Assembly (NCBI GenBank): GCA_000467715.1
Contig: AJFK01000203.1
Span: 1 to 21,845 of the forward strand
From: Hysterium pulicare CBS 123377
Taxonomy: Eukaryota > Ascomycota > Dothideomycetes > Hysteriales > Hysteriaceae
Length of the DNA stretch: 21,845 nt
Reading direction: 5' to 3'
Part shown: positions 1,504 to 21,672 of the stretch, in pieces
How the letters are laid out: each line of letters begins with the position of its first letter
Position numbering within the stretch: position 1 is the stretch's first letter
Notes under the pieces: generated by a model
Told to the model about the DNA's origin: nothing
What the model saw: only the letters and a program-made list of their open reading frames with translations
Database searches by the model: none
Program-made: the position numbers and the translations under genes

Positions 1504-4500
1504 TTAAGCCCCAGCAACTGGAGCAACATCCACCACACCCTCAGTCAACCACGGCGCCTCCAAGTAATACGTCTCAAAAGTCTTCGCATCACCCATCAGC
1601 CCCACAGGCTTATCCGCCTTCAACCAAGGCCCCGCACCCAAAACGGCATCCCAATCAAAAAGATCCATCCAAGCATCCGCCACCGTCTGCGCCACCGTAT
1701 TATCGACAGCAGCCCAAACACCCTCAATCTCATCAAAACTAGGTCCTGGATCCAAAGTCGTCTTACTCGGGTCAGCAGGATCCGGCACTACGAGATCTGG
1801 CTTCTTTGGTTCTGGGAGATCGCTCGTTTGCGGGTCAGGTGTTGGTTTGAGTACAGGGCGCTCGTCGACGTCGGTTGGGGGACCCAGGATGGGGTTCTGG
1901 CGCTTGGGTTTCACGGTTTCGTCGGTGATGCCGTCTTGGAAGACGCCTTCTTGCATCGCGGCGAGGGCGTTGAATTCTGGGAACGACCATTCTGGTAGTT
2001 GGGGGTCTGGGGCTTTAAACGTGAAGCCGCAGAGATGGTTAATGGTTGAGTCGGCGGCCGTGTTGGAGTTGAGGAGAGTGTCGATTGAGTTGCCGGCCTT
2101 TAAGGGGTCTTGTTTGCGGTCATCTGAGTTTTTAATTAGCGTGGTTATAAGTATAAAGCAGGATAGTACTTACATTTAGCCCATAAAGCCTTGGGCAGAG
2201 CCCGAATGACTGGTGTCACAAGCCACGGATTCGTTGTATCGTTGTCTAAGGTTGGTGGGTCACCAGGGGCATCGATCTTTACCGTCAATGTAGAAGCGAA
2301 AGAGTTATCGAGCTGCATCGGTCGCCCATATATAGGATCCGTTGTTGGCACCGGCGGTTTCAACTTAGTAGAGTCAAGTTGCTTGACGCCATCTCCATAT
2401 CCCATGCTATCGATCGGGAATTTGGTCTCGATTCGGAATTGAAGGGATCCAGCACGCACAAACCACTTATCACCTGTATCACGATTGGTGTTCGCGGACT
2501 TCTCATCGGCAGAGCCCTTCTCGATAGCAATGACGGCCATGGCAGTATTGTTTGCATCGCTTCCTGGGCCCGGCTGCTTGACCAAAGGCAAGAAACTGTG
2601 ATTCGGGTCACCATTCCAAACCAAAGGATCGGGAGTATTGTTTTGATCTCCGAAGTAAACGTCGAAGCCCATGACCCAAAAGTGGACATGCGCCACACCT
2701 CCGAAAGGCGGGCCTTGGAGATGAAGTGATGCGCCCAACTCAGCATGGACATGGATATGGACGATCCAGAAGTCGATGTTGCAGCCGACGGTTACGTTGA
2801 CTCCGATATCAGCGATGAAGAAGAAGGGCTTGAAGTTGATGAGAAAAGACGCCCAGGCTTCGAAAGATGCATAGATGGGGCCAGAGTTGAATGTTGCAAG
2901 TAATCGTCCACCGCCCATACAAGCCTTGGGGCATATGGCGAAGTAGGACTCTCCACGAACCGTGAGAACGTCGCTAAGATTCCAGGAGATACCAAGGCGA
3001 GGAACGTCTGGATAATACTTTGGTTTGCTGAAGGCCGGATGGTATCCGCCGACTGTGAACACCCAATCTCCGGCATTTTCATTTTTCCCAAACCAGTAGC
3101 ACAACGCAGCGCCTCCTGTCAGATGACAATCTGGAGCCAAGATGTAGGAGTTGGGTGTAAGCTGAGCAGACACCATCAACGAGCCACCCATGATGTCGAG
3201 GCTGGCAACAATTCCAAGCTCAACATATACGAATGCTTCTGGCGGCTTCTCTTTCCCAGCTGAGGGTGGCATACTAGCCGAAGCAATTGCAACAAGCGCA
3301 ATCTTCACATCGTCAGCTGCAAAACTTACAATCGCAGCTGCATCAATTGTGAGGACTTGAAATGCATCGACTTTCATACCGATAGCAAACCACAACGAGT
3401 TTTCTTTCGCTGGACTCCAGTTCACAAAGCTTGACTTATCTTCGGGCTTGCTGGAGAGGAGATCCATTGGATTATTTGTAGACTCTGGACCATGCACCAG
3501 AGGGAAGTCCTGAATATTCGATGCAGTTGGCAAGATAAGGTCATAATTATAACCAAATCCGGCCTCGACGCCGGAGACTTCGGCAAATTCTAGGGTGAAT
3601 AGTGGTCCATCCAACCTAGCAAACACAAACACGGATTTGAAGTCCTTAGGTCTCTTGGTATGCTGATAGGCCCCGACTGCAAGAAGCGTATAGGGCAGAA
3701 TACTGACAGCTAGTCCACCTCTGTAGGCCTCATAATCAGGGTTGTCGACATGGATGAAGCATCCAGCTATCATTACAGGAGGGGCGTTGAAATACACTCC
3801 TACACCTGAAAGCTTGATATCAAATCTATCAATTGCATCGGCAAGATGACTGAAGCTGATATCAAGTGGTATTCCAATGCCAAATCCCTCAAGAGTAAGT
3901 TCGATTGGGCCAAGTAGGATCTATCAGAAGGTTAGCCTATTAGAGTGTAATGAGTGTAATAATTTGTTGGATTCGGGCTCCGTTTTCCCTGCACGTTCGA
4001 CATTGGAAGGTTATGCAGCCGATAGTTTTGACTTCCGCTGCATCCTGGACACTGCTCCTCTAGAATCATACTATCAAGCTCAAACGGTATGTGCGGACAG
4101 CAACCATAGTCATCACGTGGTTTGAGGCGTACTCAGAATCCAGCAAGTTATTACACCCAGTATGGAGCAGGATAATAGCAAAGAAACTCACTTTTGCGTC
4201 AATGAGAAAGTAAACCTTTTTGTCCTTCACTTGTATACCAAACTAACGTAGCGTTAGCATGCGTGGCATGAGATTAGAAGACATCCTTACATTGGTGATG
4301 GTGATGGGAATACCAGGAAAGCTTCGTTTGCTAGCTCCCATAGTAGCCCCCGAGTCTTCCTCTGTAGCCTGGGCTGTCGGTGGGACCGCGTCTCGTTTCA
4401 CAATCGGTCCTGCAGCTGCTCGTCGAATAACAGCCCCTTGAGCTTTCTGAGGATTTGACGGAGCCCCATCGGAAGCAGTAGACGAGGACCCTCCGAACTT

Positions 4501-7500
4501 GTGGTCCAAAATGACAACATCATCTGTCACCACAATGAAATGATGCCCTTGTAGAAGCACATAATCCGGTTTCTCAGTAGTGCTACTGCTGGTACCACTG
4601 CCAGAACTCTGGTTCACGGGTAGGTTGGATTGTGTGTCTCTGAATTTTATTTCATTCCACGATTGAAGTGTCTGCAAGATAAGTCAGAATTCTCCAGTCA
4701 ACAACTTAATTTGTCATGAGATTAAGATATACTTACGCCGTTGATCACGTCAACTTCTTGCCGAGTGAAGCCTGCCGCAGAAGCATTTGAGGCAACACCA
4801 TCGGAATCCTGGACGTACATGTAGGATACAGAATCAACCGGCTGTCCGATGGAGCCCACAATCGGGATATTAGGTAACGTAGGCAATTGATCAAGTCTAA
4901 CGCGGATCAATCTCTTTGCGCTAGGTCTTGTAGTGGGCGTTTTCCCGGATGAATCTGCCTTGGGAATAGGCTTATACTGCGTGAAAAGAAACGTAAAGGC
5001 TCCAATATCAGTATCAATCTCGATTTGAAACCACATGATAATAGCGTCGGGAGTGTGGGACATGTAGAATTGAATCGGGGCGGAATCGAAATCTTCCGCA
5101 TCGGCATTTATGGCAGGTACCGCAATGCTTTTGACGAATTCCACTTCATCCAAAACATCTGCAACACTCGAGTCAAATTCTCGAATGATGTCGGCGATTG
5201 TTATTTTGGCTTCAGGGGCTACCACTCCAAGTTGCGCTTGGAAGCTCCATGACTTGCTAGACGAGTCATAGAAATACGCCATGTCCAACTCCAGAGTGTA
5301 GATTCTAAGAGCGCCGTCGAGAGTGAGCTGGAACGACTTATCGGGGCTATAGTCGAATTGAAATTCCAAGCGAGGTATTTCAAAGTGCTCTAATATGTCC
5401 ATTACATGTTCAGAAGCATCAGAATCGAAAAGGCTGTAGATAGTAGCAAAACTGATGTCCTCTGTAGCAGCAGCCACAGTCCATTGCCCGTCTGTCACAT
5501 CGACCGACACTCTTACTTTCGCAGCAAAGGAGTCTTCCTTGTCGGGATCAAAATCACGCGGTGTGAGGTAGATGACTGTAGAAATACCAACGTCATAGGA
5601 TGTTTCATTGCCAACACCAGTTGCAGTGCGCGTGGCGATCATGTCTAGGGTGTCGAAATCCAGCCAAGGCAACCCTCCAGAGTCATCGAGCTTAGAGCAG
5701 AGCTGAGCCTCAAATAGTAAATCCATGGGCTTATCTCCATCCTTTGAAGCAGTAAAATTTGCTTCCACAACCTGGAAATCAACGGCTGGAGGTATGTCTA
5801 GATTTTGCATAGAATCCGGCAAGAAGTTCTTCAAGCCTACGCCTTTCGATATTGCATCTAGTTGAGACGGTTCAATCGATTGGTATGGCTCCCACCAAGG
5901 CACCATCCCAGGCTGGTCTTCATCAGTTACGTCAGTCCACAGATAGGCGTTGAGTCGGAAGCTCGGCCAAGAAACCTCCACGAAGAAGGCAGCGTCAAAA
6001 CAATCCACCTCCAGGACAATCGTTTTCACAACATCTCTGATATCGAAAGCCCCATCAGCAGCCAAACCGCCCATTGAAATTGACACTTGACGTATGAAAA
6101 CAGACTTGGTGACAGGTAGGAGATCCGCGGGACTGCCTTCTAAACCAAGAGCACTCGCCAACCAATCAAAGGCGTCGCCGATAGATTTCGGCTCATCAAA
6201 TCGAATGATAAGCTTGGTAATCTCTGAGCCAAATTCGAGAAATATTTTCATAGACATTGAGCGGATCGTTACAGTGGCTTCGATGCAGACGAATGACGCT
6301 AGACTATATGTGCATGAATCATTTCTCCATTCGCTTTTGAGTCGCTTTTGACAAATCACACAAGCGTCACTAAGCGAAATAGGGCCGAGGAAGTTGAGAC
6401 GAGTTTGGATCCTATTCTTGAAATCTTGGAGAGAGTCATCGGCGACTTTGAACTGCAGACGTAACCATGTTGAGAAGTGTTTCTCGGCTTGGAAGAATAG
6501 ACCATTCCGTGTTGATTTTGCTCCAACGTCGAGGACAAATTTCAAGGAAGACTCAAATCCAGGTAAATCCAATACTTGGCCTGCTTTTTGGAGCCAATGA
6601 GGGCCAAAAAGCTGCAAGAGCGTCCCTAATGTGAAAGCATTCGGGGTCGTTATAGTAGTGTCTGAAGAAGTTACAGACGAGAGTCCAAGGACGAGCAGAT
6701 TGTAACCTGAGTAAAAGGCATCTCCGAACTCGGGATTTGTCTTGCTACCTGCAATCATTGTGTTGTACGTCGAGGAAGTAGAGAAGCTTAACGTGCGGTT
6801 ACTGGTTGAAATAGAGGATGTAATTTCAGTAACCTCTGCTACCTGACGAGCAATGTTCACAGCGCCCTTCAGAGCAATTCCGGAGATGTTAAGGTTATTA
6901 GATGTGATGCTCTGTATCCAACTACAATCTGCGGAGATATTGGAGCCTGCGGGGCTGAGCAGGGTATCAGTCGCCCAAAGTCCGGGTGGAAGACAGTTTA
7001 GGAACGTGTTAAGAGGATCATGTTCGTCCAAATAAACATCAGTCGGATTTGCTGCATTGAAAGGTATATTGGTATACATGGTCCCATATATGTAATATCT
7101 TTGAGTTGATTGAGGTTGCGACACCTCTAGAACCCGCAGTGGAATAGATATTCCTGGATGATTTTGTAATCCCTGGGCAGCGACAAGCTGAGGGCGAACA
7201 ACTTGTTTTATAGCCAGTTTGGGATCGGTAGGCTCGACGGGCATATCGTCCTTGTCGTCTGTTTCTGATTTGACGGGGACTGGTGAGGCGTCGGCCCCAG
7301 GATCTGAGACCACCTCTGCAGTTCTTGCCCAACCAGCAACTCGAGCGGTAGGCACCACTCGAGTCTTTTTAACAGTTTTTCCATCTGTAGCTGCTGCTAC
7401 TGTTTTTTTCGTGCTCGTTTCAACGACCATAGCATCTGTTGCATGTGTTGTCGAGACGGTGGCTGGAGGGTCAACAGCAACGGTTTTCTTTTCCGCCGGC

Positions 7501-8208
7501 TCCAACTTTCTCAACGTACCGTCAGCATACCAAGCACCATGCTTGGGATTTACGGGATCTTCGTCAAGGCCGAGGACGAGAATCCAAGCCTTGATTTTTT
7601 CGTCTGATTTCTGGGGTGAAATTTCGCTCATACGAAGCTGCAAGAGCGCTGCCATTGCAAGCCTCCGCTCATTCCTTTCCACTAAAGCCGCCTCTTTAGA
7701 AAGCTTTGGAACATCATTCGGATACGTCGACGTAAAGGCTGCGATGATATTGTTGTCAAGCTTCGCTAACTTATACAGCCCCTTTAGATTCATTTGAAAG
7801 TCTTGATCAACAAGTCCCTTAGAAGTGAAAGCATCAAGATCGTACGGCTTTTTACTTGTGGTATTGAACCAACCTATATGCAATCAGTCAATAGCAAACT
7901 GTTAGATTTGAGAGAATAGCTAAATACCAGGATAGTTTGTCAGCAGTAGCGGTGGATATCGATCCATCAAATCAACTTCCGTAACCATTTCGTCTTTCGA
8001 ATCTGTGTTTGGCTTTATTTTCGCTTTGGCTTTCTGTATATCATCTTCACGCAAGGTTGCGATCCCCGCATCGATGAAAGCTAAAGTCTCGGCATCTGTA
8101 GGGTTTCTCTTACTCAGCAAATCTCAATGTAGATGAAACTAAGAAAGAGACAAGATGCTAGTTTTTACAAGTAATGTTCATGAATATGCATCGCTGTGAT
8201 AGATTCAT
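1504..8208 (-). CDS. Giant DUF6603-type protein, 2056 aa (seven-exon model)
   Basis: Model: complement(join(1504..2123, 2174..3920, 4192..4242, 4291..4671, 4737..7873, 7928..8122, 8169..8208)). All junctions are GT...AG and in phase, and continuity across them is good, e.g. TNYPG|WFN, VING|TLQSW, DAK|ILLGPIEL and WAK|YD. The C-terminal half carries the DUF6603-like core at about residues 1270-1700, with alternating hydrophobic strands ending in GPPFGGVAHVHFWVMGFDVYFG (about 1670-1691). Residues about 205-300 are a Thr/Lys/Val-rich low-complexity linker; before and after it are beta-rich regions of no family I recognise. The C-terminal 200 residues are Pro/Asp-rich. No signal peptide or TM segment is evident, so it is probably intracellular. 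Function is unknown. It lies just downstream of, and on the same strand as, the MBL gene. The 40-nt first exon (MNLSQRCIFMNIT, ATG at 8208, intron only 46 bp) is weak: a stop in frame just before base 8122 forces an intron there, but an alternative fuses it to the MBL gene. Confidence 0.8.
3952..4158. mobile_element. MITE-like element with 23-bp terminal inverted repeats inside an intron
   Basis: Bases 3952-3974 and 4136-4158 are inverted repeats matching at 20 of 23 positions; all three mismatches are transitions, and the left copy carries the A/T version each time. The left end reads GAGTGTAATAATTTG. The 207 bp unit has no open frame of note and sits wholly within the 271 bp intron (3921-4191) of the DUF6603 gene, whose other introns are 46-65 bp. 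Removing it leaves an intron of about 64 bp, the normal size here. No unambiguous target-site duplication is visible, so the superfamily is not assigned. Confidence 0.65.
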
Positions 8209-8310
8209 GCAAAAAAGAATGGGCAGTGCAGAGTCCGTGCTTAGGGAAGCTGGGAGGCGGCCGTTACAGTTGTGATGCAAAACTAATGAAGCAAATCACT
8301 GCCACCTCTC

Positions 8311-10359
8311 TCAAGCCGACCTATAGTGGGTAATTCTCTCGAACATTCGGGAGCACCTCGTTACTGGGGGAGAAGCCATCGAAACCAGCAAATGAGAGTG
8401 AATACGCTCTCAGCATATCAAAGAAAAAGGGATGTCGGATCAGAGAGTGGCGTTCGTTCCATTATGTATTCAAATATTTCAATAGAGACGATCAAAAGTA
8501 CTCACGTGGATGGTAATATTCGCCGGATTCGGTCACAGACGCGACAATGAAACTTGGAGAAAGTGCTTCGAAGAAAGATACTTCGGTCGACTCATTCGCA
8601 CCGTGGCTGAAAAACATTAGCATGCCTAAAAGCATAAATGGATATAGTTTGACTCACTGGCTTAACTTCATTGCCGAAATCAATGATGTCCATTTATTTG
8701 CACCTGTCCCATTCTGGAGCCATGAAACAAGTGCGCCTTCAACATCCCACAAAACATCACCACCAAGATAATGCAAAAGCTTGAACGAATCTTTTGGTTC
8801 TGTCTTCCCTGTCGGAGCAATAATAAAGCAAACTATAGAAGCAGAGTTCTTTTCGTGGCTATTCTTGCGAGTTTTTGTAAACCGCAGGCCCTTGCCAAGG
8901 TTTCCTCCAGTGGAGTTGACGACGTCTCGATGCGGCTTAAAGGTGAATTCAGACTTGTTTGCTGGTTTCAGCGTCACATCTTCAATAGATGCATCCCTGA
9001 GAGGAATAGAAGCGCTGGCCTTTTTAGCCACTGCCGTAAAAACAGTTGTTTTCATAAGAGGAGTATCGCCAATGATGTACTGGTCTCCAGCCACAATGTA
9101 CATTCTTGGGCCGTCGTTTGTACCAAGATTCCAGCCCGCGGCACCAATTAACAAAGCCGGATTTGTGAGATCAGTTTGAGTCTTTCCTGAAGCTAGGAGC
9201 CCGTCTTGAAAAACCTCAGCTCCTAAATATTGCATAGCTGAATCATGTAGAATAGCGACCAGGTTGAAGCGCCAAGCTTTGTAGTTGTTTGGATTTTTGA
9301 TCCAAGTAGGAGGTACGGAGGCATCGTCGCTATTTTCGAGTGGGTAAGGTATTCCTAAATGGTATTTGATTGCGGTTGAAACTGCAACAGCGTTGACTCC
9401 ACTTGCAACATACTTATCGTCTAAATTGACTTGAAGGGAATCAGGGACGTCTTCCGGATCCTTGTACTTCTCCACAGCTGGTGTTGAGGGTGTTGGATCA
9501 TCTGTTGGTGTAGCAGCCTTTTTGCCACGCTTCTTTTTGGGCTCTACTGAGGTAATCTTAGCAATTTTCCTCTTTGCTGGGCGTCTAGATGCTGGTTTTG
9601 GCTTTGCGTCGTCTTCGGTCACAGGTGGCCCGATTCGGCCTCTAATCTGGTCGACCATGTATGGCACAAAGAATTTTGTAACCATTTTGTCAGGCGTGAC
9701 TGTAATTCCAACCGTGGGGGTTTGAACAATTGTTGGGTTGTCTGGAAAGTCGCTCGCATATCTCAGATACCTGCTTTTCATCGCAATGTTTTTGTTGGTA
9801 CTCCGGACCTGGTCCCATGCTTGTCGTTCCGATAATGAGGCTGCACGGTTGAGTTCCAGGACTTCTGCTGAATCCAATTTATCAAAATCTGCTTCTATCG
9901 TCGCATCATCAACCGTCTCGCCGGCCTTAGTGAGAATCCACGATTTGTATTTTTTTACTGATGCTGGAATCAAAGCCTTATATTCATCCACTTCGAACAG
10001 TTGATTAGTAAAGTCTTCAGCGAGCAAACTGATGACTCCCTTGTAGTGATCCATATCCCTAATAAATTTCCTTAGCTACAGGCTCACACAAGAATAACAC
10101 GACGGACTCACCAATGCGTTATCATAACGCTATCAAATTTCAATTGAGTATCTCCATCGGGCAGATCATACCGTCCCTCAATCTTACCAATTACATCCTT
10201 GATAGCTTGAGGACTGGAAGATTTCCCTCCATCGATCAAGACAGCCTTGAGGATCTTCGGTTTGGCTGTTGCAAGTTCATTTTCTTGAACCAGCAAGACG
10301 ATGGAAGAGTCGCCGTTGTTAATGTTGATGTGCCAACTGTGCACAGTCTTATCCGACAT
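8311..10359 (-). CDS. ComEC-type metallo-beta-lactamase-fold hydrolase with large insertion, about 615 aa
   Basis: Model: complement(join(8311..8408, 8506..8606, 8658..10058, 10112..10359)). The first two junctions each restore a diagnostic motif: ITHW|DMDHYKG and MKLS|HHGANES. Motifs in order: INNGDSSIVLL at 13-23 (the ComEC vGqGDs strand), LIDGG at 41-45, HWDMDH at 82-87 (the HxDxDH metal-binding form), NSASIV...LGGD with a metal-bridging Asp near 517, SHHG at 549-552, and YYHP before the last intron. This is the full motif set of the MBL domain of ComEC/Rec2-like proteins, which act on phosphodiesters. Between HxDxDH and GGD there are about 430 residues, far more than a plain MBL domain, including a strongly basic stretch at about 235-265 (RRPAKRK, KKKRGKK) that could be a nuclear localisation signal or nucleic-acid contact. 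No signal peptide is seen. The terminal exon (stop at 8311) is uncertain; the second acceptor AG two bases further on gives a different tail. Confidence 0.8.
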
Positions 10360-11334
10360 CTTGCCACAAGATTTGCTGTCGAAATCTAGCGTCTGATTGC
10401 ACCTCAGTTGGCCCAGTCGCCTTGAGGTTTAAGGGTCATGAAGGGACCGGATACTTAGCTGGTCAGCGGTATCATACCGCTTGAAGGCTCTTGATTGCGT
10501 GTTATGACCGGGTACTGACGAGTAGAAGAATCTAAAGCGTGATTATGTAGAAATAGATGCTTTAGTGGGTTGGCTCTTTCCGAAGATCATTAGATGCAGC
10601 ATCAATAGACTCAACACATGCGTATGAGTATGGCCAAGCTCCCGGGATTTCGAACTCAAGGTCGCCCCTCGGTCCAGTCGTGGTAAGTTGGTACAGCTGC
10701 CGCGCTGCATTAATTTGGTGCGGCAAGAATTCGCGGCCTGCGAGTTGGAGGCTGGAAAGCCATAGCTGAAATGAAACAGCAGAATCAATAAACACGACTG
10801 CATGTGTCCGCGTGTTGTAGTGCATAAGTGTTGATCTATAAGGTCGGTAAAGGGTGAAGGGTCAAATAAGAAGCAGAGTATGGATTAATGAAAGACGGGT
10901 TGTTGGATTAGGGCCGCCAAGCTTTGAACTAACCCCTTACGCCTTTCCCGTACAGGGTTTAGGACGCCTTTTCCAGCGTCGCGAGCTGAGGTTCATCCTC
11001 TTTCAGCGGCGCTACCTCTAGTAAGAGCGGAGAAGTGGCGTAAGCTGAGACATAGTTTTGCATTGTGCATGCATATGCATATTGCGCTTAAGAGATCCAT
11101 CGTCGAAGTGCGTCAGAGCAGTGGTCTGGATTCTCCATCCTCGGTTCAATTTTTCGAGGTGTAAACGTTCTCCCACCAATTTATGATATGGATTCGTTTT
11201 CAGTTTCAAGCTATAGCACGCTATCTATCTCCGCTCTTATACTTGCAAGCTCCACATTCCTCATCCTCAAATCTTTGGTTTTCGCATCATATTAGCATTC
11301 ATCTTTTCCAACCATCTCAATCAATCCTCACACA
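10360..11334. promoter_or_regulatory. Divergent promoter region between MBL gene and SUR7-like gene
   Basis: These 975 bp separate the ATG of the MBL gene (minus strand) from the ATG of the membrane-protein gene (plus strand), so they must hold two promoters and two leaders. The right end (about 11240-11334) is rich in C and T and leads into CACAATGG, a typical fungal leader and start context. The left end carries the palindrome and flanking repeats listed separately. A minus-strand open frame of 87 codons (10562-10825) is present, but I found no support for it being a gene. Confidence 0.6.
10465..10481. promoter_or_regulatory. Palindrome AGCGGTAT-C-ATACCGCT, candidate Zn2Cys6 factor site (CGG-N7-CCG)
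   Basis: Two perfect 8-bp arms surround a single central base, about 105 bp upstream of the MBL start codon. It contains CGG-N7-CCG, the inverted-triplet layout bound by fungal binuclear zinc-cluster regulators. It is flanked by a near-perfect 11-bp direct repeat, GACCGGATACT at 10445-10455 and GACCGGGTACT at 10506-10516 (10 of 11). The arrangement looks like a cis-regulatory module for the MBL gene; which factor might bind is unknown. Confidence 0.45.
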
Positions 11335-12177
11335 ATGGCACACCATCACCACCCCCATAACGCAACTCCTCAACCAATATCTCGTCCCCTAATCCTCCGA
11401 ATCCTCTCCATTCTGGCTCTCATCCTCCCCCCAATTCTCTTCCTAATTAGCATGTCCTTAACCCTCGCCACAATCTACAACCCCCATTACTCCCGCTCCG
11501 CACTCTACAACAGCACCGGCCAACCCAACGGCATCGTCATCTCCGCCTCTCCCTTTTACACGTGCGACAGAGTCCCCACCGAAACAATCGATGACATCTC
11601 AACCTACAACCAGACCTGCCAGCGGACGAGCTTTCTGGGGAACAAAGGAATGAAAGCATGCATCGCGAGATTCAAGCCCGGATTCGACGACACCCAACTT
11701 TGTCAGAAGGTCATTGCGAGCGCGAGTTTATATGTCGCAGGAGCCGTACTTGTAGGCCTTGCCACGCTCTTCTCCGTCATTTATCTAGCTCTTGCTGCGA
11801 AATCTGCTTTAGCGACTACAGAGCCTGTCCCCGGGTACACCTACAGATCTATTCCTGCAAAATCCGAAGGCAGCGAGACGACTGCGGACGCGGCATCATC
11901 GGCACCATACTCAACTTCAAATATGCTTGTGAGCATGCTTGGTTCTTTTACCACGTTCCTGGCGCTGCTGGCCACGGGCTGCTTGATTCTGGCACAGATA
12001 GTAGGCGTGCAGGCGCTGGTGAACGAGCAGCATCCTACGGCGGGCGAAAGTCCGGAAGATGGCGTCATGGGGAGGTGGTATATGGGGACGCCTGCATATG
12101 TGTGGAGTAGTGTTGCGTGGTTAAGTGCGACCATTGGAGTTTTTGTTGCTGTTGCTGGACGGATTGCGAGGAGGTAG
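11335..12177 (+). CDS. Four-TM SUR7/claudin-like integral membrane protein, 280 aa
   Basis: A single uninterrupted frame starting at ATG in a good fungal context (CACAATGG). Four hydrophobic segments are visible at about residues 19-46, 127-155, 197-227 and 254-276. The loop after the first, about residues 47-126, holds four cysteines (77, 95, 109, 123) and two N-glycosylation sequons (Asn59, Asn92), which suggests it faces outward and is disulfide-bonded. A short Ser/Thr-rich loop (about 160-196) joins TM2 and TM3. The topology matches the fungal SUR7/PalI/claudin-like superfamily of plasma-membrane organisers, but no sharp signature motif was recognised, so the family is a topology-based call. 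The N-terminus has an odd His run (MAHHHHPH). It sits between the two halves of the large-protein cluster. Confidence 0.75.
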   Translation: MAHHHHPHNATPQPISRPLILRILSILALILPPILFLISMSLTLATIYNPHYSRSALYNSTGQPNGIVISASPFYTCDRVPTETIDDISTYNQTCQRTSFLGNKGMKACIARFKPGFDDTQLCQKVIASASLYVAGAVLVGLATLFSVIYLALAAKSALATTEPVPGYTYRSIPAKSEGSETTADAASSAPYSTSNMLVSMLGSFTTFLALLATGCLILAQIVGVQALVNEQHPTAGESPEDGVMGRWYMGTPAYVWSSVAWLSATIGVFVAVAGRIARR

Positions 12178-12521
12178 TGGGGCACATTGAGCGCAACCAT
12201 TCGTGGCGCCTGGAGTATACATTAGACTCGTGATAGGCCTTCTTTCTGGCCTCGTATATAGTTTAAGCTTGGTAATTTATCTCGTTAACAACCTCAACTG
12301 ATGTCCTGGCCGCCAAGAAAAGAACATCCCTCGCAATGCGCATAGGTGTCAAACGCACTTGTCGGACCACTGCAACTTTTAAAAATACTATTAACTATTT
12401 CCTTGATTACGTATTAATGCTGCCTCCATGATGAAAAAAATATTAAGAATAAAGAATGTCATTAAAAGGGGCAAACAAAATCAGCGTTAAAGATATCAAA
12501 TCATCATATCAAATCTCAGAA
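12178..12521. other. Convergent 3' spacer
   Basis: These 344 bp lie between the stop codons of two convergent genes and hold their 3' UTRs. The right half is A-rich, with an AATAAA on the plus strand at 12448-12453 that could serve as a poly(A) signal for the membrane-protein gene, although it is about 270 bases past the stop. No gene or clear repeat is seen. Confidence 0.5.
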
Positions 12522-15500
12522 TCAAGCAGCCTTGGGCGGCGGATCAGGTCTCCACCCCGTCGCAAATCCCGTCCTCCTCATAACCTTCCAATTAAAATTC
12601 GCACTCCCCTGATCCTGCCAAGTCTTCCCATCCGCTAACAAAAACCCATACAACTCTCTCACTCTGACTTCAACCGGCCCAGTCGGCGGCTTGACCTTTC
12701 CACTCTGTATATCCGCCCCTAGTCCAGGTACATCAGACCCAGCGACATCAACCTCCATAAGCTTGAATGACAAATTACGGTTCCACTCAACGGGCGTCGC
12801 CATCTTCGTTGATCGGGGAATCACACGCACTATCATGTATTCAGCACCTGGGTCTAGATGAATCACCCAGCGCTGGTTATTCAGCATACGGCCGCGTAGA
12901 CCAGCGGACGCAGAATCAGACACGAGCCCCAGGCCTTGGATATCAGCGTCGCCCTTTCTCCTGCTTGCATCGCCGATTGGGATCTTGATCTGAACTTCTC
13001 GAAGCCAAAGGCTCTTTTTAATGGTCTGGCCTGGTTTCGAGGGATCTGGAACATCGATTGGATTCATCATTGCGGGATTGATGTTGATGCTGAATATGAG
13101 GTCGGGCACGTAGGGCGTGTCGACGAAGACGTAGGAGTTTGAGGAGGGTTGGTTGGGTTGCGGTGCAACGTATGCTGATGTTGAGGGGAAGATGGCGTAT
13201 TTGAAGGACCGGTCATGTGCGACTGGTACAATAGGGGCCGGAGGTGGAGCGCCTGTTGCCTTGACTGGAGTGAGTGGTGCGAGTCGGGTTAAGTGGGGCG
13301 GTGTTACGGGCAGAGACTGTGCTTGGGCTCGCGCTGAGGTTGATGGAAGTAGTATCGTAGTATACTGGGGCACCGCAGGAACTGCATCCTTGGATATCTG
13401 TGTGAGAGGTGCTGACGTGGAAGATGACCCGTTCTTAATGCTCTGAATCTTTTTATCCGCACTGTCCACTTGCGAGGAAGATGCTGAGTCTCTTGCCCGG
13501 ATCTTGTAGGGCTTTTGTGGGTTCTTTATTTTCCCATCTGCATTGAGGCCCTTGATCTCAAGGTACTTCATAGTGTCGTTGAGCATCAACGCAGTCATAG
13601 CGCTAGAGAGCTTGAACTTGCCACCAGGCCCCCATTCATCCGGCATTTCTTTCACAAATAGGCTGTCATCACCCAGAAGATACTTCTCGAGAGTAGGAAA
13701 ATTAAGGCATCGTGTATTCCAGTCATATAAAGGCTCTTTAGTGACCGTAACAGAAGCGGCTACATCATGTGGGTCGGGTGATGCTGGTTCATGTCCAGGA
13801 CGGTATAACTTCTGTGGTCCTGCAAATTCATGGAGGAAGTCTTTCTCAATTTGCTTCGTGACTGGGTTGATGTCTCTGTACACTTTGCGAAACAAGAACT
13901 CAAGGGATGCATTGTCAAGGGCGTCTCCTGCGCTAAATCTCTGCTGATGGGGTGGTTGGGAAATTTTGATTGTAACCAGTTCTTCGGGTGGTCTATCAAG
14001 CAGCACAAGTAACACATCCTTTCCTAGATGCTTTTGCAGAAGAATTGGCACTCTGCCTTTACGGGTTGACTCATCTGGATAAGGAATGTCGAGAACTAGG
14101 TCGGGGAAGACAGTCACAACGGCTGAACGAAGCAGAAACCCATACGTTGGGACCTGCGGGTAATGTAGAGGTTCGCCCTGCTTATCGGTATACGGAGTGG
14201 AGAAGAATGTGTTCAGTTGAGTCTTTATAGCATCTCGCACGTGGTCGTCATCCCGGGCCATATGATTCGCGACGCTCAAAGCGCCATCAATAAAACAATC
14301 CATCCAATTGGTATCAATCTGAAAGAATCGTATACTCTCAGGTGGTAGAAACGATGGATCATTGATATAATAGTGAGTTGGTAGTCCACTTAGCCAAAGC
14401 CTATCCATAATCCATTGGTGGACGTAGGCCCAATCAGTTGACGCCGCCAGCGTCAACTCATCAAATATGGTATCTTCGGATTCAGCACTAGAAGATGTGG
14501 CGGCCACTTGTCGGCGCACTCCTGCCACAAAAGCGTGTGATACCTCCGCGTTTAATGTCGGATGGCCCTGTGATTTGATGTCTGCCGGAATAGGTCCGGT
14601 ATGGCTCCACCGTTGTTTTAAGCCTGGGGTTGGGGAGGCATGTGTGGAAGTAGCTGTGGCTATATCATTCAAAGCCGAGGTCGTGTGTGCTAAATTCTTA
14701 AACACCGCTCTTTTGCCCTTCATGCCGATGATAGCGTTAGCAGCTACCAAATTAGATGCCTGGCTGCCGGCTTTATGTGCCATAGCTCGAACACGCATCA
14801 AAGCTGCCACGAAGCCCAAGTCCGAAGTTGCGAGTAGTTTTCCTATTTGCCACGCGGAGCTATAAGATATGTCCATGATACCTAAGGATTTGTCAAAGAT
14901 TTGATAGTCCTGGCCAAAAGTTGAGTTATATGGCCACCCATCCTGGGCTGATGGAGAGGCAGTAGGGAGAAGCGGGCCCCTTGTGAAAGCAACTGTCTCT
15001 TCGCCAGATGCTGTACGATGGCGAATTAATGTATAGCCATTCGTCAGTCGCTCAATCATTGCCAGTTTGAGGCTGGTAATTTTATCTTGCTTAAGAGATG
15101 AACTGCCGGTAGTGCCTGCCAATGCTGCTTGCACTCGGAGCTGATTTAAAGTGCCATCAGGACAGCGTAGCAAATTTCTCGCCACCTGATCTTTCGTATC
15201 TTTCATTGTCGCTCCGAGGTCTCTCATGGAGTCCACGAAATTGACGGTCATAGGAGGCTGACAGAGGTAGTTCCAGCGGTAAAGCGAGATGAATGCAACG
15301 AGTTCGTTGTCAGCCATCTGATCGATCCCTTTCATCTGATCGACATACTCCAGAGATATCATGTGCACAATCTGCGGCCTTGGAGGAGTATTTTGGGCGA
15401 TATCAGTCGGTCCCGTTCGTTTGGAATGAACAATTGAGAATAGACCACTTTCGGCATCTTGTGCGCTTGCTTGGACCATACCCGCAGTGTTAACGTTTCG

Positions 15501-16391
15501 TACATGAGAAAGACAGCTAAAGGCTCGAACGTCAGGCTGACTTGTGGTAGAGTCCAAGGGAAACAGTTGCTTGAAAAGCTTTCCTGAAAGGAAAATGACT
15601 TCTACCGGAGTCGAAAGGCTAGATATCTCCGAGTAATCTGGGTCTTTTTTAAAAGCTGGAATGCTGAGCTTGCTGGTACTAGGTGATGGAGCTGCAGGTG
15701 GATCTGGCAGATTTGGTAATGCTAGGTACTCGGCCACTGTCATCGGAACCGTGAATGCAGAAGACTGCTTGATCTCCAGAGGGTTGCCATCGGCATCAGT
15801 CCTCTTGAAAGTAGCATTCAACCAATTTAATTGATCGGATGACAACCTTAGCTCTTGATCCTCTTCCTTAGGGGCACTGCAATCAAATGGAAAGACAGCG
15901 AGCCAGGGGATCGCATCCTCCTTCGGGTCTGATATGTCTTCAGATATGCCCGGTGCACTACGTTCCCAAGGTAGGTGCGGGTCATTGAAGACTATGTGAG
16001 GGAGCACATTGGGCTGGTCTGCATGTCCTTGTGGTGGGTAAGTGCTGTGTATATCTTTCGGGTCGATGCTGAATTGTGGAGCGACAACTTCGAAAGTCTG
16101 GATTGCTGTTGTTTCTCCTTTTAATCCGAGGGGGAGTTGTTCGTGAACTACAGCACTCTTGCCATTTTCGTCGGCGTTATAAGTTATTACCACCTCTTGA
16201 GAGACGTTTATCGAATATGTGCCAGCCTCCAAAGAAGGCTTGAAGAATGAGTGTATCTGCATATCTCCCAGAGCCGGAAGAGGTAAGGAGTCGCGGTCTT
16301 CTTGCCCCGTAGAAGGTGTAGCATCTCGCTGGACCTCTTTACGAAGGTTTCGCAGAACCTGATTCCGAGGAGAGAGGGCTGCGGTAGCCAT
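12522..16391 (-). CDS. Uncharacterised 1289-aa protein with LPWER / PPESIRFF / GFLLRS motifs
   Basis: A single-exon frame; an in-frame TAA nine bases before the ATG at 16391 supports that start. Blocks in order: a beta-type N-terminal part with APQFSIDPKDIHSTYPP (104-120), then NVLPHIVFNDPHLPWER (128-143) and IPWLAVFPFD (161-170); a central helical part with QIGKLLATSDLGFVAALMR; PPESIRFF.IDTNWMDCFIDGALS near 683-707; GFLLRSAVV near 745-755; a Pro/Ala/Ser-rich linker in the C-terminal third; and a closing beta-rich domain. From memory these blocks resemble very large uncharacterised bacterial proteins, but I know no assigned function and cannot name a family. No signal peptide or TM helix is seen, so it is likely intracellular. 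It is divergently arranged with the 1481-aa gene and probably co-regulated with it. Confidence 0.85.
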   Translation of the reverse strand: MATAALSPRNQVLRNLRKEVQRDATPSTGQEDRDSLPLPALGDMQIHSFFKPSLEAGTYSINVSQEVVITYNADENGKSAVVHEQLPLGLKGETTAIQTFEVVAPQFSIDPKDIHSTYPPQGHADQPNVLPHIVFNDPHLPWERSAPGISEDISDPKEDAIPWLAVFPFDCSAPKEEDQELRLSSDQLNWLNATFKRTDADGNPLEIKQSSAFTVPMTVAEYLALPNLPDPPAAPSPSTSKLSIPAFKKDPDYSEISSLSTPVEVIFLSGKLFKQLFPLDSTTSQPDVRAFSCLSHVRNVNTAGMVQASAQDAESGLFSIVHSKRTGPTDIAQNTPPRPQIVHMISLEYVDQMKGIDQMADNELVAFISLYRWNYLCQPPMTVNFVDSMRDLGATMKDTKDQVARNLLRCPDGTLNQLRVQAALAGTTGSSSLKQDKITSLKLAMIERLTNGYTLIRHRTASGEETVAFTRGPLLPTASPSAQDGWPYNSTFGQDYQIFDKSLGIMDISYSSAWQIGKLLATSDLGFVAALMRVRAMAHKAGSQASNLVAANAIIGMKGKRAVFKNLAHTTSALNDIATATSTHASPTPGLKQRWSHTGPIPADIKSQGHPTLNAEVSHAFVAGVRRQVAATSSSAESEDTIFDELTLAASTDWAYVHQWIMDRLWLSGLPTHYYINDPSFLPPESIRFFQIDTNWMDCFIDGALSVANHMARDDDHVRDAIKTQLNTFFSTPYTDKQGEPLHYPQVPTYGFLLRSAVVTVFPDLVLDIPYPDESTRKGRVPILLQKHLGKDVLLVLLDRPPEELVTIKISQPPHQQRFSAGDALDNASLEFLFRKVYRDINPVTKQIEKDFLHEFAGPQKLYRPGHEPASPDPHDVAASVTVTKEPLYDWNTRCLNFPTLEKYLLGDDSLFVKEMPDEWGPGGKFKLSSAMTALMLNDTMKYLEIKGLNADGKIKNPQKPYKIRARDSASSSQVDSADKKIQSIKNGSSSTSAPLTQISKDAVPAVPQYTTILLPSTSARAQAQSLPVTPPHLTRLAPLTPVKATGAPPPAPIVPVAHDRSFKYAIFPSTSAYVAPQPNQPSSNSYVFVDTPYVPDLIFSININPAMMNPIDVPDPSKPGQTIKKSLWLREVQIKIPIGDASRRKGDADIQGLGLVSDSASAGLRGRMLNNQRWVIHLDPGAEYMIVRVIPRSTKMATPVEWNRNLSFKLMEVDVAGSDVPGLGADIQSGKVKPPTGPVEVRVRELYGFLLADGKTWQDQGSANFNWKVMRRTGFATGWRPDPPPKAA

Positions 16392-16668
16392 AGCAGCGAG
16401 TTATCCCTTGAAGTTCTCGATCGAACTTCACTCGTAGAGTTCCTGGCTTCACGGTGTAGGATGAGGCTTCTTCCAGCGTCACAGAGAGAACGTCCCGGCA
16501 CCAGCTAAAGTCGAAGAGGCCGTGCAACGAGATGCACACTATTCGGCACCATGTGACTTGGTGACTAACGAGCATTCCGGTCTGCATGCCCGATGAAACA
16601 TGAGAGTCGTTCATTTCTGGAAACGCGGTCAATGCTCCACCGGGAAGCTCAAAAAGAGAGTCAGACAT
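16339..16668 (-). CDS. Possible small protein (109 aa) or upstream ORF overlapping the 1289-aa gene start
   Basis: An ATG-initiated frame (MSDSLFELPGGALTAFPEMN...) runs into the start of the 1289-aa gene and overlaps it by 53 bp in another frame. The peptide has alternating hydrophobic residues and a stretch ending in TVKPGTLRVKFDREL that looks protein-like. I recognise no family. No good GT donor would splice it in phase onto the large frame: the candidates I checked, GTGAAG before the CCGCAG acceptor, leave the wrong phase. It may be a separate small gene, an overlapping upstream ORF in the leader that lowers translation of the giant, or chance. Confidence 0.3.
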   Translation of the reverse strand: MSDSLFELPGGALTAFPEMNDSHVSSGMQTGMLVSHQVTWCRIVCISLHGLFDFSWCRDVLSVTLEEASSYTVKPGTLRVKFDRELQGITRCYGYRSPLSSESGSAKPS

Positions 16669-17174
16669 TTCAGCTACGGCATATGGAATAATGAGTAGCG
16701 CCTAGTCCGGACCATAGTAGAGGCAGTTAGTTGTGAATGAAACGGTGATGGCTTGCATGGTGGAGCAAAGTGTGGCTTGCGTCGAAGCTCAGCTCAACAT
16801 GACCGAAGCGCCAAGCTCCCGAAACGGAATTACGGTAGAGCGGGCAGGCCATAGTCACATATCTACTCCGTCTACACTTTCCATTCCATCAGATCCGTCT
16901 TCACAGCTCCATCCGCCATCATTTTCCAGCCATTCGAACATCCACAGCTGAGTCCTGACCCCGCATCTACATCGATTCTTTTTTTAGACGAGGCATGCTA
17001 GACCCATGGGAACCGGGCATAGCACGATGCATCCAGAAGCTCTTTTTTTTGAGCTTTCACATGCTTCTCTTTCCTTCATCGAGACGTCCCAAGTTTGTGA
17101 CATGATATCTTCTATTATACATACTTGAAGTAGCTGTAATACCAAGCAACATTCTTGCTTGAATTGTTGCAACT
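16669..17174. promoter_or_regulatory. Divergent promoter between the 1289-aa and 1481-aa genes
   Basis: A 506 bp region (783 bp if the 109-codon frame is not a gene) lies between two outward-facing start codons. It contains an 8-bp palindrome GTCCGGAC at 16705-16712, poly-T runs near 16979 and 17043, and an ATTGTTGCAACTATG start context for the plus-strand gene. A shared bidirectional promoter would let the two giants be expressed together. Confidence 0.5.
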
Positions 17175-20100
17175 ATGTCTGGTGTGGTGGCTAATCCTCC
17201 ACCTGGAGATCCCGTCACAACAGTCTTAATACCATGTGCTTTGGATGCTTTCGTACTCACTGAGCAGTGCTGCGACCCTCTCAACAACTACAAGATAGCA
17301 CCAATTACGCAACCAAAGTTTGTCCTCATCCGGATTGCAAGCTCGCTTGATTTGCTAATCCGCTTCAAGTTACACTTTCCTACGACTTCACGATCAGCTG
17401 CTCGAGAACGACGTGTTAGACCATGTTGATCTCCATTCTGCGACGCCCGCCGACCTCAATTCGAGAGTCACAGATCTGGGGAGTGGAATTCGCAGAGACT
17501 CGCGACTTGGTGTCTATCTACATTGGACTATTCCTCAATTCTACCGGATAGGCTCCTCAAGTGCAGGTGGCGCTACCGTGGACAAGTCGCAAAATACTCC
17601 TGAAACGCAAACCGAACGAAAACGCCAACAAGGATATCCATCTCGCAGTGGAGTCGGTCCGTCGTCTGGCGCAGATGCTGATACAACTACGCCCGACTTC
17701 CGCCCAGTACCCAACCGTTGGCTGATTACGCGTCGAATTGACAAGGGCTCAATTGGGACAGCTGGTGTAGACTACCCGAAGGAACTCACTATCAAAGATT
17801 TTGAATCCTGGATTGTCGAGAGCGACACCTTGTCAAACATTGATGAGATTGGTGAAAAGTATGGGCTGGACTTTGATCTGGAAGCGGAGCGTAGTCCGTT
17901 TCTCAGCTCAGTCAGCATGACTCCCGACAATACTGCCATTATCGACAGCCAAGCCGAAGTTTTCATTGGCAAGAAGACCAAAGTGGAGGATTGGGATTTA
18001 TCGGCAGCCGACGCAAGTTCAAACGTAGACTTAACAGTCATGACTTCGAGTAATCCACTTTTCGCGGATTTTACGCATCATAATATGAATGTCTTCAGTA
18101 TAGTGGACAATTTCGAGTATATCGTTACCAGCGGCGGTAAAACAACGAAGGAGTATCTCCATAAGGCTAAAGCGGATTACAGTGTCATCGGTTGGCACTC
18201 AAATTCCGATGCTGATCCCTTGACAACGTACTTAGACAAAATCAACTCTACAGTACCAATCCACTCCAAAAGACTAAGCGATTGTCGAATGCAGATCAAA
18301 GAAGTGTCCGATGATGTTCAGAAGTGGCTAGATTCCTCTTCTGCTTCCAGGATTCTATGTCATGCATCGAAATATGACGTAGTCTTCGACCTTACGGCCA
18401 AGTCTCCTGCTAGCACAGTACAAGCAGACAACGCCGGTCTTGCCATGCTGCACAAACAACCGATTTCCGTAGGCGCTACGCCAATCGACGCATTGCTAGC
18501 CTTTTGTCAAGCTCATCAAGACGAAAAGGACGATAAGATGCACGATGTGTATCAAGATTTGCTACGCATTCAGTACTTGCTTCACGAGCAAGAGGACGAT
18601 GATGTTGATGGGCTTCAAGCCGCATCCGATGAGGCATACGAACAATCCTTCGAAAAGATTGAGAGTGGTACGCAGTGGTTCTTCAAGCATCAGTCAGCTC
18701 CAGGCGATAAACCGGTAGAGGCAACAACTCCGCAAATAAATGCCCTACAGGATTTAAACAGGAAGCAAGCAGTGATTGACAATCTAGCTCGGGAGACATC
18801 CAAGAAGCAGTGGTATTTATTTGCCGCCTGGTGGAATTACGTGTCTGGATTCATCGAGAATACCAGGTCTGATGATTACAGACAACACATCTCCAATTGG
18901 ATGGGCCGTCTGAAACAACTCCAGACATGGAAAACTGATTGGGATACGCAAATAACGACCCTGAATAATAGCCTCTCTGATCCTTCAAAGGGCACCCCTG
19001 GTCGCTTTTTCCAGAGGAAAGATCCCACCATCTTGTTTGGTAACCTCAGTCGAGGTTGGGACGCCGACTTTGTAGATACTTTGAACGTGCGGCTTCAAAC
19101 CCAAACAGTGACGCCGGATCCAAAAAAGTACACGTCATCTATAGCTGGATGGGAAGCATCAGAAGATCATTTCATTAAAGCGGTGAAACCAAAACTTCCA
19201 TCAGATCTCCAAGAAGGGGCAATCAAGCTACTTGAGGAGTTCCGAGAGCTGAATAGTTCCAACGATACCAATACGAAAGCTGTCGAGACCCCGAGAGTTA
19301 TCCCTTGGTATCATGACGAATTAGCAAGAAGAGACTCGAACGATAACGTTGCAGAAGAGAGCAGAGGAAGGGACAAGTGGCAAAATACGCAACCCTGGCG
19401 ACCATTATTTATTGAATGGGAAGCAACCTATTACCACATACCATTTGACCAGTGGAGCCTCAACGAGTATGATCGCTTTTCAAATTGGGGCGCAAAAGTT
19501 GTCCATTACGGCGCGAACGTCGATCTAGCGGACCCCAAAAATCAAGTCACGGATGTCAGGCATATCACAGGCCGGAGCTACCTTACTCCTCAGGCAGCCT
19601 CCACTTTGCAAACTACACTTACGCAGATCTTTCAAAATACCAATCCAGATGATTTGAATGATCCTGACAAGTACAACATGCCACAAGCCGAACGAGATAA
19701 CCTACTGAAGCTCGTATCCGGACTAGAGATTGTTTCGACTCCAATGACTGGTTTAACATCTCATCTCCTCACACTATGTGAAGGAACGCATCTGAAACCA
19801 CTCGTGCGCCTGCCAAATCAAACGACACTGCCTATACTTGCGGCAGAAACGGCAATTAATCCCGCTTTGATCGATCCGGTCAAGAAGACTAGAGTTGCAG
19901 ATCCAAATGATCTCCTCGTCGCAATGGACACCGAGACGAGCCTCACTCCTTACGGCGATATCGCTGTGAACACTAATGCTCAACCAATGAAGCCCGTTAC
20001 TCATGGCCAGCTTATGTTCACAAAGCTCAATGTTGTAGACAAGTTTGGACAAGTCGTTTGCGCTATAGATCCAGGACCTCGTCGGGCTGGAGCCATACCA

Positions 20101-21672
20101 ACGATCACTCCATGCATGTCGGATACGTATTTCCCTGGAACCGTTACAGGTGAAGATCCCAAGCTTGCAACTTCCAGGGCAAACACCGTTATTGCGCAGA
20201 CGGACCATGCAGCGTGCCCCTTGATTGCTCTCCCTCCAAGTATCAATCAACCAGCAAGGTTGAATGCTTCATTTGTTGTTAAAGACAAGGACACTGGAAT
20301 ATGGAGAAAGGCGACCGATTGGGATTTGGACCCAGGACCTGTCATTGGATGGATGGTGGTCAATTATGCCAATCAAGGTTTACAGCTGTTCTTCCCAGAT
20401 GGCACCTTCTACCGCGAAGTGAGGCTCGGAGGAAGACATAGGACATCTGCCGGGTTTAAATTTCTGCCTTTCGATCCTCCAAGTGACACGACCGCAGCCG
20501 GGGCTAGTACGGAACTTGACAAGATAATCAATCTTCTCATCACTCAAGACGATCCGTCATACTTACGAGGTTTCTTCGACATGATCAATCAGAGCATTGA
20601 TGACAACCAAGCTCATGCTCCGAAATCCTATGCTACTTACAGTTCGGCTATCGTTGGGAAGCCTTTGGCTATTGTCAATGCAGGGTGGAGCCTCGAGTTG
20701 GCATGTGAAGAGAGCCAGAACTGGAGTACCTACTGGCAAGACTACGTAGACAAACTCAAGGAGCAAAACAAACAACCTCCGCCAAGCCGTACCCTCCTTG
20801 ATCCGACTGAAGGTGATCAGCTCCCTCCAGATGATAACTTAGGATACACGTTCCCCATCAAATTTGGGGACAAAGAACGCACATTCGATGGATTGGTCGG
20901 GTACTTCTTGCCTAAAAATCCATCTACACGAACATCCACAGATATCGACTATACACATATCTACACCTACTTCAACGACACTCTCGCCCAGGATACCAAA
21001 AAGCGTGGCAAAGACCCTCGCATCCCCATTGCTACTTCAAACTTTCCCAAGTTCACTCCATACTGGATCCCACCAAGCGATCCAGCCAACGCCCCACCAT
21101 CTCACGATTCCTATCTCCAAGTCCTAACACTAATCATGGATCCATTCCTTCCCGTCCACGCTTACAGCGCAATTCTGCCAAATAAATCCTTAAAACTACC
21201 CGACTACACCGTCGAGCGCGCATTGAAGCGGATTTCCGCCTTCTGGGCCGTCGGTCCCCTCTTATCATCCATCGATGTCTCTCCATTCGATTCAACCGCG
21301 CCATTGGATGAAAAATACATCAATTCCATCCGCCCTCCCGCCCCAGGAGCAGCGGCCATCGCCTCGGCATCAGCGACACAACTCCCCACCGTTCATCTCC
21401 CGCTCAGTCCTCCTACTGCGACGCAGGGAGGCGGTGGTGCGCAGTACCGATACTTGCAGCCCTACTACGTTGAGGACAAGAATGTGAAGGACAAGAAGAT
21501 TACGAGGTTTAATGCTTATTCCATTGATGGGAACGCGGCGGCTGGGAGTGAGGCTTTGGAGGCGAAGTTGGTGCAGGGTCCGTATACGGCTATTGAGGGG
21601 TATTTGCAGGTTGCGAAGGCGATTACAGATGATGTTGTGGTGACGACGCCTGTGGTTGTTGGGGGAAAGTGA
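17175..21672 (+). CDS. Uncharacterised 1481-aa protein with ITQPNYTFLRL / LHWTIP / PNRWL / GRSYLTPQA motifs
   Basis: Model: join(17175..17317, 17370..21672). The 52-bp intron (GTTTGT...TTCAAG, with GCTAATC upstream of the acceptor) is supported by the protein: exon 1 ends ...IAPITQPN and exon 2 continues YTFLRLHDQLLENDVLDHVDLH without a break. Landmarks: VLIPCALDAFVL at 17-28; LGVYLHWTIPQ at about 94-104; PNRWLITRR at about 162-170, after a 50-residue Gln/Ser/Gly-rich insert; a helical, possibly coiled-coil part at about 440-620; IEWEATYYHIPFDQW at about 735-750; GRSYLTPQA near 781; QLMFTKLNVVDKFGQVV near 925-941; Pro-rich C-terminal segments. I recall bacterial giants with similar LHWALP and PNRWL blocks, but no function is known to me. 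No signal peptide or TM segment is clear. It is the divergent partner of the 1289-aa gene. Confidence 0.85.

Follow-up and report, generated by a model that had tools for sequence, protein, structure and literature searches.

We analyzed a stretch of 21,845 nucleotides from the fungus Hysterium pulicare CBS 123377 (contig AJFK01000203.1), which is called the window throughout. The window would contain the fungal version of a bacterial cassette of several genes, for which the order enzyme-A-B-C-D was observed in bacteria. A, B, and C encode giant proteins, A being a DUF6603 protein; M denotes the enzyme gene of the fungus, which encodes a hydrolase with a metallo-beta-lactamase (MBL) fold, and D is a family found downstream of C. 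In bacteria, A-B-C is one near-obligate unit. In our judgement, there is an even chance that the cassette encodes a modular delivery or weapon complex, with a body of A, B, and C, an exchangeable enzyme, and D as a binding fibre.

Linkage of genes A, B, and C in bacteria

The tblastn searches with B and C against 72,556 plasmid records retrieved the identical eight records, three of which are copies of S. clavuligerus pSCL4. Because B and C matched the same eight records and were adjacent every time, chance co-location is excluded. A DUF6603 gene was located just upstream of B-C in seven of the eight records. This arrangement is annotated, for example, in Paenibacillus polymyxa p-YT9A and in Streptomyces sp. 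NBC_01276, in which a DUF6603 protein is followed by the hypothetical proteins B and C. The C alignment was also scanned over 84,980 prokaryote species, which yielded 199 encoding stretches, and the best 80 of these (79 distinct loci) were used. The resulting set comprised 85 bacterial loci, 79 found via C alone and six plasmid loci found via B or C.

A was present in 83 of the 85 loci, and B as well as C in all 85, with B and C adjacent in 85 of 85. The one-strand order A-B-C was found in 83 of the 83 loci with A, with A directly upstream of B, and the gap between B and C never exceeded 300 nt. Two loci lacked A, one truncated at a contig end (L028) and one from which A is absent (L002). The hosts belong to the Actinomycetota, Bacteroidota, Chlorobiota, Myxococcota, Pseudomonadota, and Bacillota, and include a SAR324 bin. 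When DUF6603 was the starting point, B was found within a few kb at 23 of 24 loci in 12 genomes, the exception being G006:C4; these genomes had been picked through C, and one of them contributes two pairs of mirrored loci. Nine of 296 drawn Actinomycetota genomes carried DUF6603, one of them the centre genome. Of the other eight, three contained A-B-C, one had a weak B match only, and four had neither.

Several loci deviated in copy number or gene length. Streptomyces olivoreticuli (G002; L024, L051, L070) has five DUF6603 loci, four of which form two mirror pairs near both chromosome ends. At L086, L087, and L094, A is about 3,200 amino acids long, and B is split between two frames in L086 and L094 and shortened in L087.

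Genes of the fungal window and their layout

The window is eukaryotic, as its genes contain short GT-AG introns. Gene A (1504..8103, minus strand) consists of several exons; its start is loosely placed, with seemingly short exons at 7.9-8.1 kb. Its DUF6603 core (2145..3920, minus strand) passed the Pfam model DUF6603 (PF20248) with 477.9 bits against a gathering cut-off of 27 (E 4.4e-143), and had 96 phmmer matches among the bacterial proteins compared (best E 2.5e-86). The N-terminal exon of A (4722-7883) resembled the extension at the N-terminus of long bacterial A proteins with an E value of 1.3e-9 in a search with one sequence and filters off; BLAST and plain phmmer both gave no match for this exon. 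Gene M (8492..10359, minus strand), encoding the ComEC-like MBL-fold hydrolase, was delimited by splice reading and motifs; its exons are 10359-10112, 10058-8658, and 8606-8492, and a further 3' exon is possible. Gene B (12522..16391, minus strand) is a single exon for 1289 amino acids. Gene C (17175..21672, plus strand) encodes 1481 amino acids and has one intron, between the exons 17175-17317 and 17370-21672. Both B and C were placed by alignments and tblastn.

M and A are ordered and oriented as in bacteria; the end of M lies about 400 bp before the A region on the same strand, and the enzyme gene is directly upstream of A. B is on the same strand, upstream of M, and C is divergent. In comparison with the bacterial cassette, the one-strand order A-B-C is not kept, and A and B are separated by M and an open reading frame for a membrane protein. 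This intronless frame (about 11335-12177, plus strand, about 281 amino acids) has several hydrophobic stretches and a cysteine-rich loop; the Pfam scan gave no match, and we presume that the protein is claudin or SUR7-like. A preliminary description of the window had reported three giants and an MBL hydrolase grouped within 20 kb. All four genes are indeed present within that distance with intact frames, and the lengths given for B and C agree. The grouping holds insofar as the genes lie together, but they do not form an uninterrupted row, as the membrane-protein frame is located between M and B. At the edge of the window, positions 2-988 (plus strand) encode the C-terminal part of an FMN-dependent dehydrogenase (E 1.9e-104), an ordinary enzyme that we take to be of the lactate dehydrogenase type.

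Conservation and predicted folds of the giant proteins

Seven-row alignments revealed blocks common to the window and bacteria, namely LPHI/LPWER, PxES.RFF, and LLRS in B, and LxW.LP, VPNRWL, and LTP in C. In these alignments, the window row was 27% (B) and 26% (C) identical to the first row. Larger alignments of 49 rows of B and 51 rows of C contained near-invariant W, P, G, and R positions, so that the constraint claimed for the motif blocks in the preliminary description was borne out. Most residues that do not vary in B and C are W, P, G, R, or D, which suggests that both proteins are structural rather than catalytic.

No Pfam family (E up to 1) and no NCBIfam family was matched by the frames of B and C, by the long exon of M, or by the N-terminal exon of A. 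Among three bacterial B and four bacterial C representatives, no Pfam match below 0.05 was obtained except for an F5/8 type C domain in the C protein of L001 (E 1.8e-13), a domain that also occurs in D. Searches of PDB sequences with the profiles of C, B, A, and D retrieved nothing significant (best E 2.6, 1.3, none, and 0.019, respectively). These results agree with the earlier view that the giants are large uncharacterized proteins of bacteria: B and C have bacterial relatives and no family in the libraries used, and A is DUF6603. A match of the giants to well-known unrelated families, proposed as a check at the time, was not found in these libraries. The expected co-occurrence as neighbors was found for A-B-C in 83 of 85 loci, and for M upstream of A in 14 of 81, with L050 and L098 as additional cases.

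Structures were predicted for C and A of L039. The C model, built with a 51-row alignment obtained from 86 rows, is confident (pLDDT 86.4, pTM 0.81). A Foldseek search with it returned nothing significant, the best E values being 0.9 for the PDB and 0.15 for viral models. The A model was built with 29 of 83 rows, from short A proteins only, and contains long antiparallel hairpin runs (pLDDT 77.5, pTM 0.48). Its best PDB matches by Foldseek were outer-membrane barrels, SprA, and apoB-100, with E values of about 2e-3 (best 1.7e-3).

Two ideas about the origin of the giants were discarded. That B and C are paralogues is unsupported (hhalign probability 0.4%). Concerning a viral origin, neither the C alignment nor the window C had a relative in IMG/VR, and viral structures gave no significant match to C.

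The D family and the C-terminus of fungal B

The presence of D was scored at those 77 loci for which 900 or more bases downstream of C were available. D was found in 72 of these; it starts after C in 70, at a distance of at most 130 nt in 66. Elsewhere, it is located upstream of A (L054) or fused to C (L079). The D proteins share a conserved N-terminal beta domain. BLAST linked the N-terminal parts in 2380 of 3916 pairs and the C-terminal parts in 1148 of 3916 (89 proteins, 17 being too short). A Pfam scan of 106 D proteins detected F5/8 type C domains in four, and a PLAT domain, a haemagglutinin repeat, an S74 domain, DUF5649 repeats, and a bactofilin domain in one each.

Fungal B has about 220 C-terminal residues that are not present in bacterial B. 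Residues 1060-1279 (12555..13214, minus strand) form a possible D-like tail, according to a profile comparison. The likeness of the tail to the D family profile is weak (P 0.0019, probability 14%); in hhalign, the score was reached by 0 of 60 shuffles and by 0 of 35 other pieces of the window. In single-sequence hmmsearch, the tail scored only 0.8-2.8 bits against D. In this fungus, D may have been reduced to a tail on B.

The enzyme slot upstream of gene A

The slot upstream of A was surveyed at 81 of the 83 loci with A, i.e., those with at least 900 bases upstream of A. A same-strand gene ending at most 200 nt upstream of A was found in 30 of 48 loci with long A versus 6 of 33 with short A. 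The slot genes comprise 35 called genes and one open frame. The M family had 16 matches in 928 called genes, 13 of them in the slot; with the slot open frame of L045 as the 14th case, 14 of the 81 surveyed loci have a relative of M in this slot. The matches outside the slot are in L050, L051, and L078, of which L050 is an additional case with a split A. The arrangement M-A-B-C was encountered once more at L098, from the Actinomycetota draw.

Other slot genes encode unrelated enzymes. An S8 subtilase was found in L033 (E 2.5e-47), an LCAT-like (lipase-like) protein in L076 (E 1.3e-4), a DUF4135 (LanM-like) protein in L085 (E 9.3e-19), and M91-like peptidases, below the Pfam cut-off, in L009, L017, and L058. 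The slot proteins of L034, L044, and L069 contain WNI-, GDFNVD-, and SDHLP-type motifs, which we take to be EEP hallmarks; Pfam gave 0.061 for L044 and no match for L034 and L069. A class 3 lipase gene precedes the 3,208-amino-acid A of L086, hemopexin-type genes are located upstream of some short A genes, and several slot neighbors are without a name (L006, L079, L080, L082, L083). A near-universal enzyme upstream of A, which had been expected at first, was ruled out, as 45 of 81 loci have no adjacent gene. In the Streptomyces loci L007, L036, L053, L056, and L060, a small divergent gene (about 235 amino acids, minus strand) recurs upstream of A; zinc-finger-like and deaminase-like motifs were seen by eye, and two of the proteins were scanned against Pfam with no convincing match.

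In fungal M, splicing restores the HxDxDH motif across an intron (THWDMDH), and DGG, GGD, and HHG motifs are also present. The spliced protein matched the profile of bacterial operon M proteins with an E value of 7.5e-23 (one sequence, filters off), and its phmmer partners (L067, L005, L065, L098, and L081) are all encoded directly upstream of A. Judged by sequence, fungal M and A belong to the bacterial enzyme-A arrangement. Against Pfam Lactamase_B, fungal M scored 12.4 bits (E 0.15), below the cut-off of 22.7; the bacterial M proteins of L067, L010, and L005 pass, and that of L045 narrowly misses. The relation of M to ComEC is our assumption. The long exon of fungal M alone had no tblastn match in the plasmid records. 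At about 9500-9620 (minus strand), fungal M contains a lysine-rich insertion that by eye resembles a nuclear localization signal, and at least one bacterial M protein, that of L045, contains a charged insertion in the corresponding region.

An exchangeable enzyme next to conserved giants would also be compatible with an intracellular conflict system directed against phages or other parasites, in which A, B, and C sense or hold an invader, the enzyme is a suicide or restriction effector, and the fungal copy serves internal defence. Exchangeable nucleases, lipases, and peptidases are typical defence effectors, too. Signal-peptide-like starts, scored with a crude h-region test, were nearly absent (1 of 83 A, 0 of 85 B, 4 of 85 C, and 0 of 106 D), and the M protein of L045 matched the PADLOC models LmuA, the Lamassu effector (E 2.8e-12), and RTasMBL (1.2e-5). 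Both observations speak for the defence reading, although the window M exon itself had no PADLOC match. Against defence, no PADLOC family was matched by A, B, C, or D, each represented by one protein. Sensors of defence systems are usually NTPases, whereas a Walker A-like motif was found in few members (3 A, 2 B, 7 C, and 3 D). In addition, the discoidin, PLAT, and endosialidase-chaperone domains of some D proteins suit a target outside the cell. On balance, we regard intracellular conflict as unlikely.

The same slot bears on a further alternative, a scaffolded enzyme complex of the surface, spore, or matrix that has no target cell and holds enzyme and adhesin at the producer's own surface. 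The adhesin-like D, the hemopexin-type genes, the spread in filamentous actinomycetes, and the retention of a copy in a fungus would fit such a complex. However, unrelated enzymes are exchanged at one slot, which is typical of weapons and not of a housekeeping coat, and the patchy distribution (9 of 296 Actinomycetota genomes) also speaks against it. We attach little probability to this explanation.

Co-occurrence with contractile sheath genes

The sheath family PF17482 was present in 13 of 15 cassette genomes, and PF04984 also in 13 of 15. Of 200 Streptomycetaceae, 46 had DUF6603 and 126 had a sheath match. The sheath was found in 39 of the 46 DUF6603 genomes, compared with 87 of the 154 others (Fisher p 4e-4; size-adjusted odds ratio 4.0, p 6e-4; both uncorrected for kinship). 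The DUF6603 genomes counted here include those with the wider cassettes, and ordinary phages are matched by the sheath families as well. In the Actinomycetota draw minus the centre genome, 4 of 8 genomes with DUF6603 had a sheath match versus 24 of 287 (p 0.0035). In the 15 cassette genomes, the nearest sheath gene on a shared contig was about 236 kb away. The association is a lead against a purely stand-alone reading of the cassette.

It raises the question of whether the cassette serves a contractile injection system (CIS) as cargo or as partner, its product being loaded on, or acting with, phage-tail-like particles encoded elsewhere. Besides the enrichment of the sheath, the match of the L045 M protein to a PHROG family named tail protein (9.1e-10) would support this. 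Nevertheless, we consider such a partnership improbable. The statistics ignore kinship and include families of ordinary phage, two of the 15 cassette genomes have no sheath match, and the distance on shared contigs is large. One representative each of A, B, and C matched no PHROG family, and we know of no CIS in fungi.

A plausible transfer to the fungus

An old transfer from bacteria to the fungus, followed by intron gain, is plausible. The long fungal branch, the 22-32% identity over longer alignments, and the introns in M, A, and C fit this scenario. The highest identity of fungal B to a bacterial B is 29% (L085). A quick unrooted tree of 49 B rows gave a fungal branch of 1.85; the smallest well-supported set with the fungal row comprised nine rows, none of them actinobacterial, the placement of the fungal row being flagged as unsure by the program. 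We infer the transfer as such, as well as its direction and age.

Wider relatives of the cassette

At those DUF6603 loci without a clear B-C that were read (L092, L095, L096, and L099), other giants were found alongside. The second giants of L096 and L092 matched the B profile with E values of 4.6e-4 and 5.6e-4 in the LPHI/LPWER region, while the next giants of these two cassettes had no match to C. A wider kin of cassettes, with DUF6603, a B-like giant, and other giants, therefore probably exists.

L092, L095, L096, L099, and L101 make up what can be viewed as a second kind of cassette, in which DUF6603 is accompanied by other giants. Some of its frames contain LLPIRLETRF, and some contain WNRLEPVPRSSDMRPQ and RQWQFGEF. 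The second-kind cassette of S. longwoodensis includes a peptidoglycan-binding protein and FG-GAP repeats. An archaeal DUF6603 gene was found on a plasmid of Halobellus sp. DFY28 (L100), where a series of hypothetical proteins, one of them very large, is encoded after it; three of the DUF6603 neighbors had no Pfam match.

A proposed delivery complex

A, B, and C would be structural proteins of one complex, because they are linked near-obligately and have conserved W, P, G, and R residues instead of catalytic sets. A may be a very large amphipathic beta-sheet protein that, going by a weak model, could form a barrel, groove, or shell. The slot gene, at loci that have one, encodes an MBL hydrolase in the fungus and in at least 14 bacterial loci and other hydrolases elsewhere, and this exchangeable enzyme would be the payload. 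D, with its conserved attachment domain and its variable, sometimes sugar- or lipid-binding ends, would act as a binding fibre. The complex would then operate like a toxin complex: it would be synthesized in the cytosol, be released without Sec signals, and dock by means of D, and the enzyme would be brought to or into a target cell. In the fungal copy, the enzyme retains its metal motifs, and D would perhaps persist only as a tail on B. The delivery reading was chosen because it most economically accounts for the combination of an enzyme, an A-B-C body, and a D fibre.

Several observations weigh against delivery. The slot has no adjacent same-strand gene in 18 of 48 loci with long A and 27 of 33 with short A, and the gene adjoining A in L054 is D, not an enzyme. 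Pfam binding domains were recognized in few of the 106 D proteins, and the C-terminal parts of D are partly related, 84 of 89 falling into one BLAST component. No separate D was found in the fungal copy up to the end of the window. The A model is weak, and its superpositions were poor, with TM scores of up to 0.34 among the matches listed, so that A can be assigned to an amphipathic beta sheet only. A hydrophobic 19-residue stretch above 1.8 was found in 28 of 83 A proteins, and a membrane role of A is thus possible. Fungal M and the N-terminal exon of A fit a loose Walker A-like pattern. One further copy (L091) has the order C-D-A-B. Finally, no immunity gene was seen named at the loci, in the course of analyses that included no search aimed at immunity genes.

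More tentatively, and with distinctly less than even confidence, we suggest that the cassette represents a new class of delivery machine, in which both the enzyme slot and the fibre ends are swappable, that occurs in about seven bacterial phyla and was captured whole by a fungus, which retained a nuclease-like payload. It would have wider kin in further actinomycetes and Bacteroidota and would be underived from phage tails, Tc toxins, umbrella toxins, or pore-toxin families. If enzymes are delivered, common soil bacteria would possess a new delivery chassis, and its move to fungi would be a rare multi-gene transfer. Whether or not this is so, the function of DUF6603 becomes accessible to tests through its new genomic context. 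The cassette comprises three giant families, two of which are in no library used and one of those two has a confident predicted fold without a match.

Comparison with known systems

The literature searched, with preprints outside it and few subscription journals included, contained no mention of DUF6603 or PF20248. A broader search with the same coverage, transfer to fungi included, retrieved nothing recognizable as this cassette. The Pfam entry DUF6603, of which gene A is a member, describes one domain of unknown function, whereas B, C, D, and the slot enzymes belong to different families. In the case of Lamassu, the M protein of L045 resembles the MBL effector LmuA of PADLOC, but no other Lamassu model was matched by the A-D representatives.

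Tc toxin complexes are large, are encoded by multiple genes, and carry an enzyme payload. In the proposed reading, the cassette product would likewise be a large multi-gene complex with an enzyme payload. In contrast to Tc toxins, no Tc (TcA) or RHS-type (TcB/TcC) Pfam family was found in the window or in the bacterial A, B, and C proteins scanned.

Extracellular contractile injection systems have variable binding fibres and changeable effectors; reports on such systems include PMC12923769 and PMC8213781. In the proposed reading, the cassette resembles them in both respects, and the two co-occur in genomes. It differs in that no sheath, tube, or baseplate family was found in the A-D proteins scanned, the flanking genes having been scanned only partly.

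The umbrella toxin particles of Streptomyces consist of UmbA, which is trypsin-like and associated with lectins, the small UmbB, and UmbC with ALF repeats and a toxin domain (PMC11062931). In the proposed reading, the cassette would follow a similar particle logic, in which a variable toxin is combined with diversified lectin parts, and both occur in soil actinomycetes. A trypsin-type Pfam family was not matched by the A-D proteins scanned; this comparison involved no search with Umb sequences. Set apart by description, the cassette has a gene of its own for the enzyme, and the giants A-C are different proteins. Overall, the cassette looks like an undescribed system for protein delivery or a weapon.

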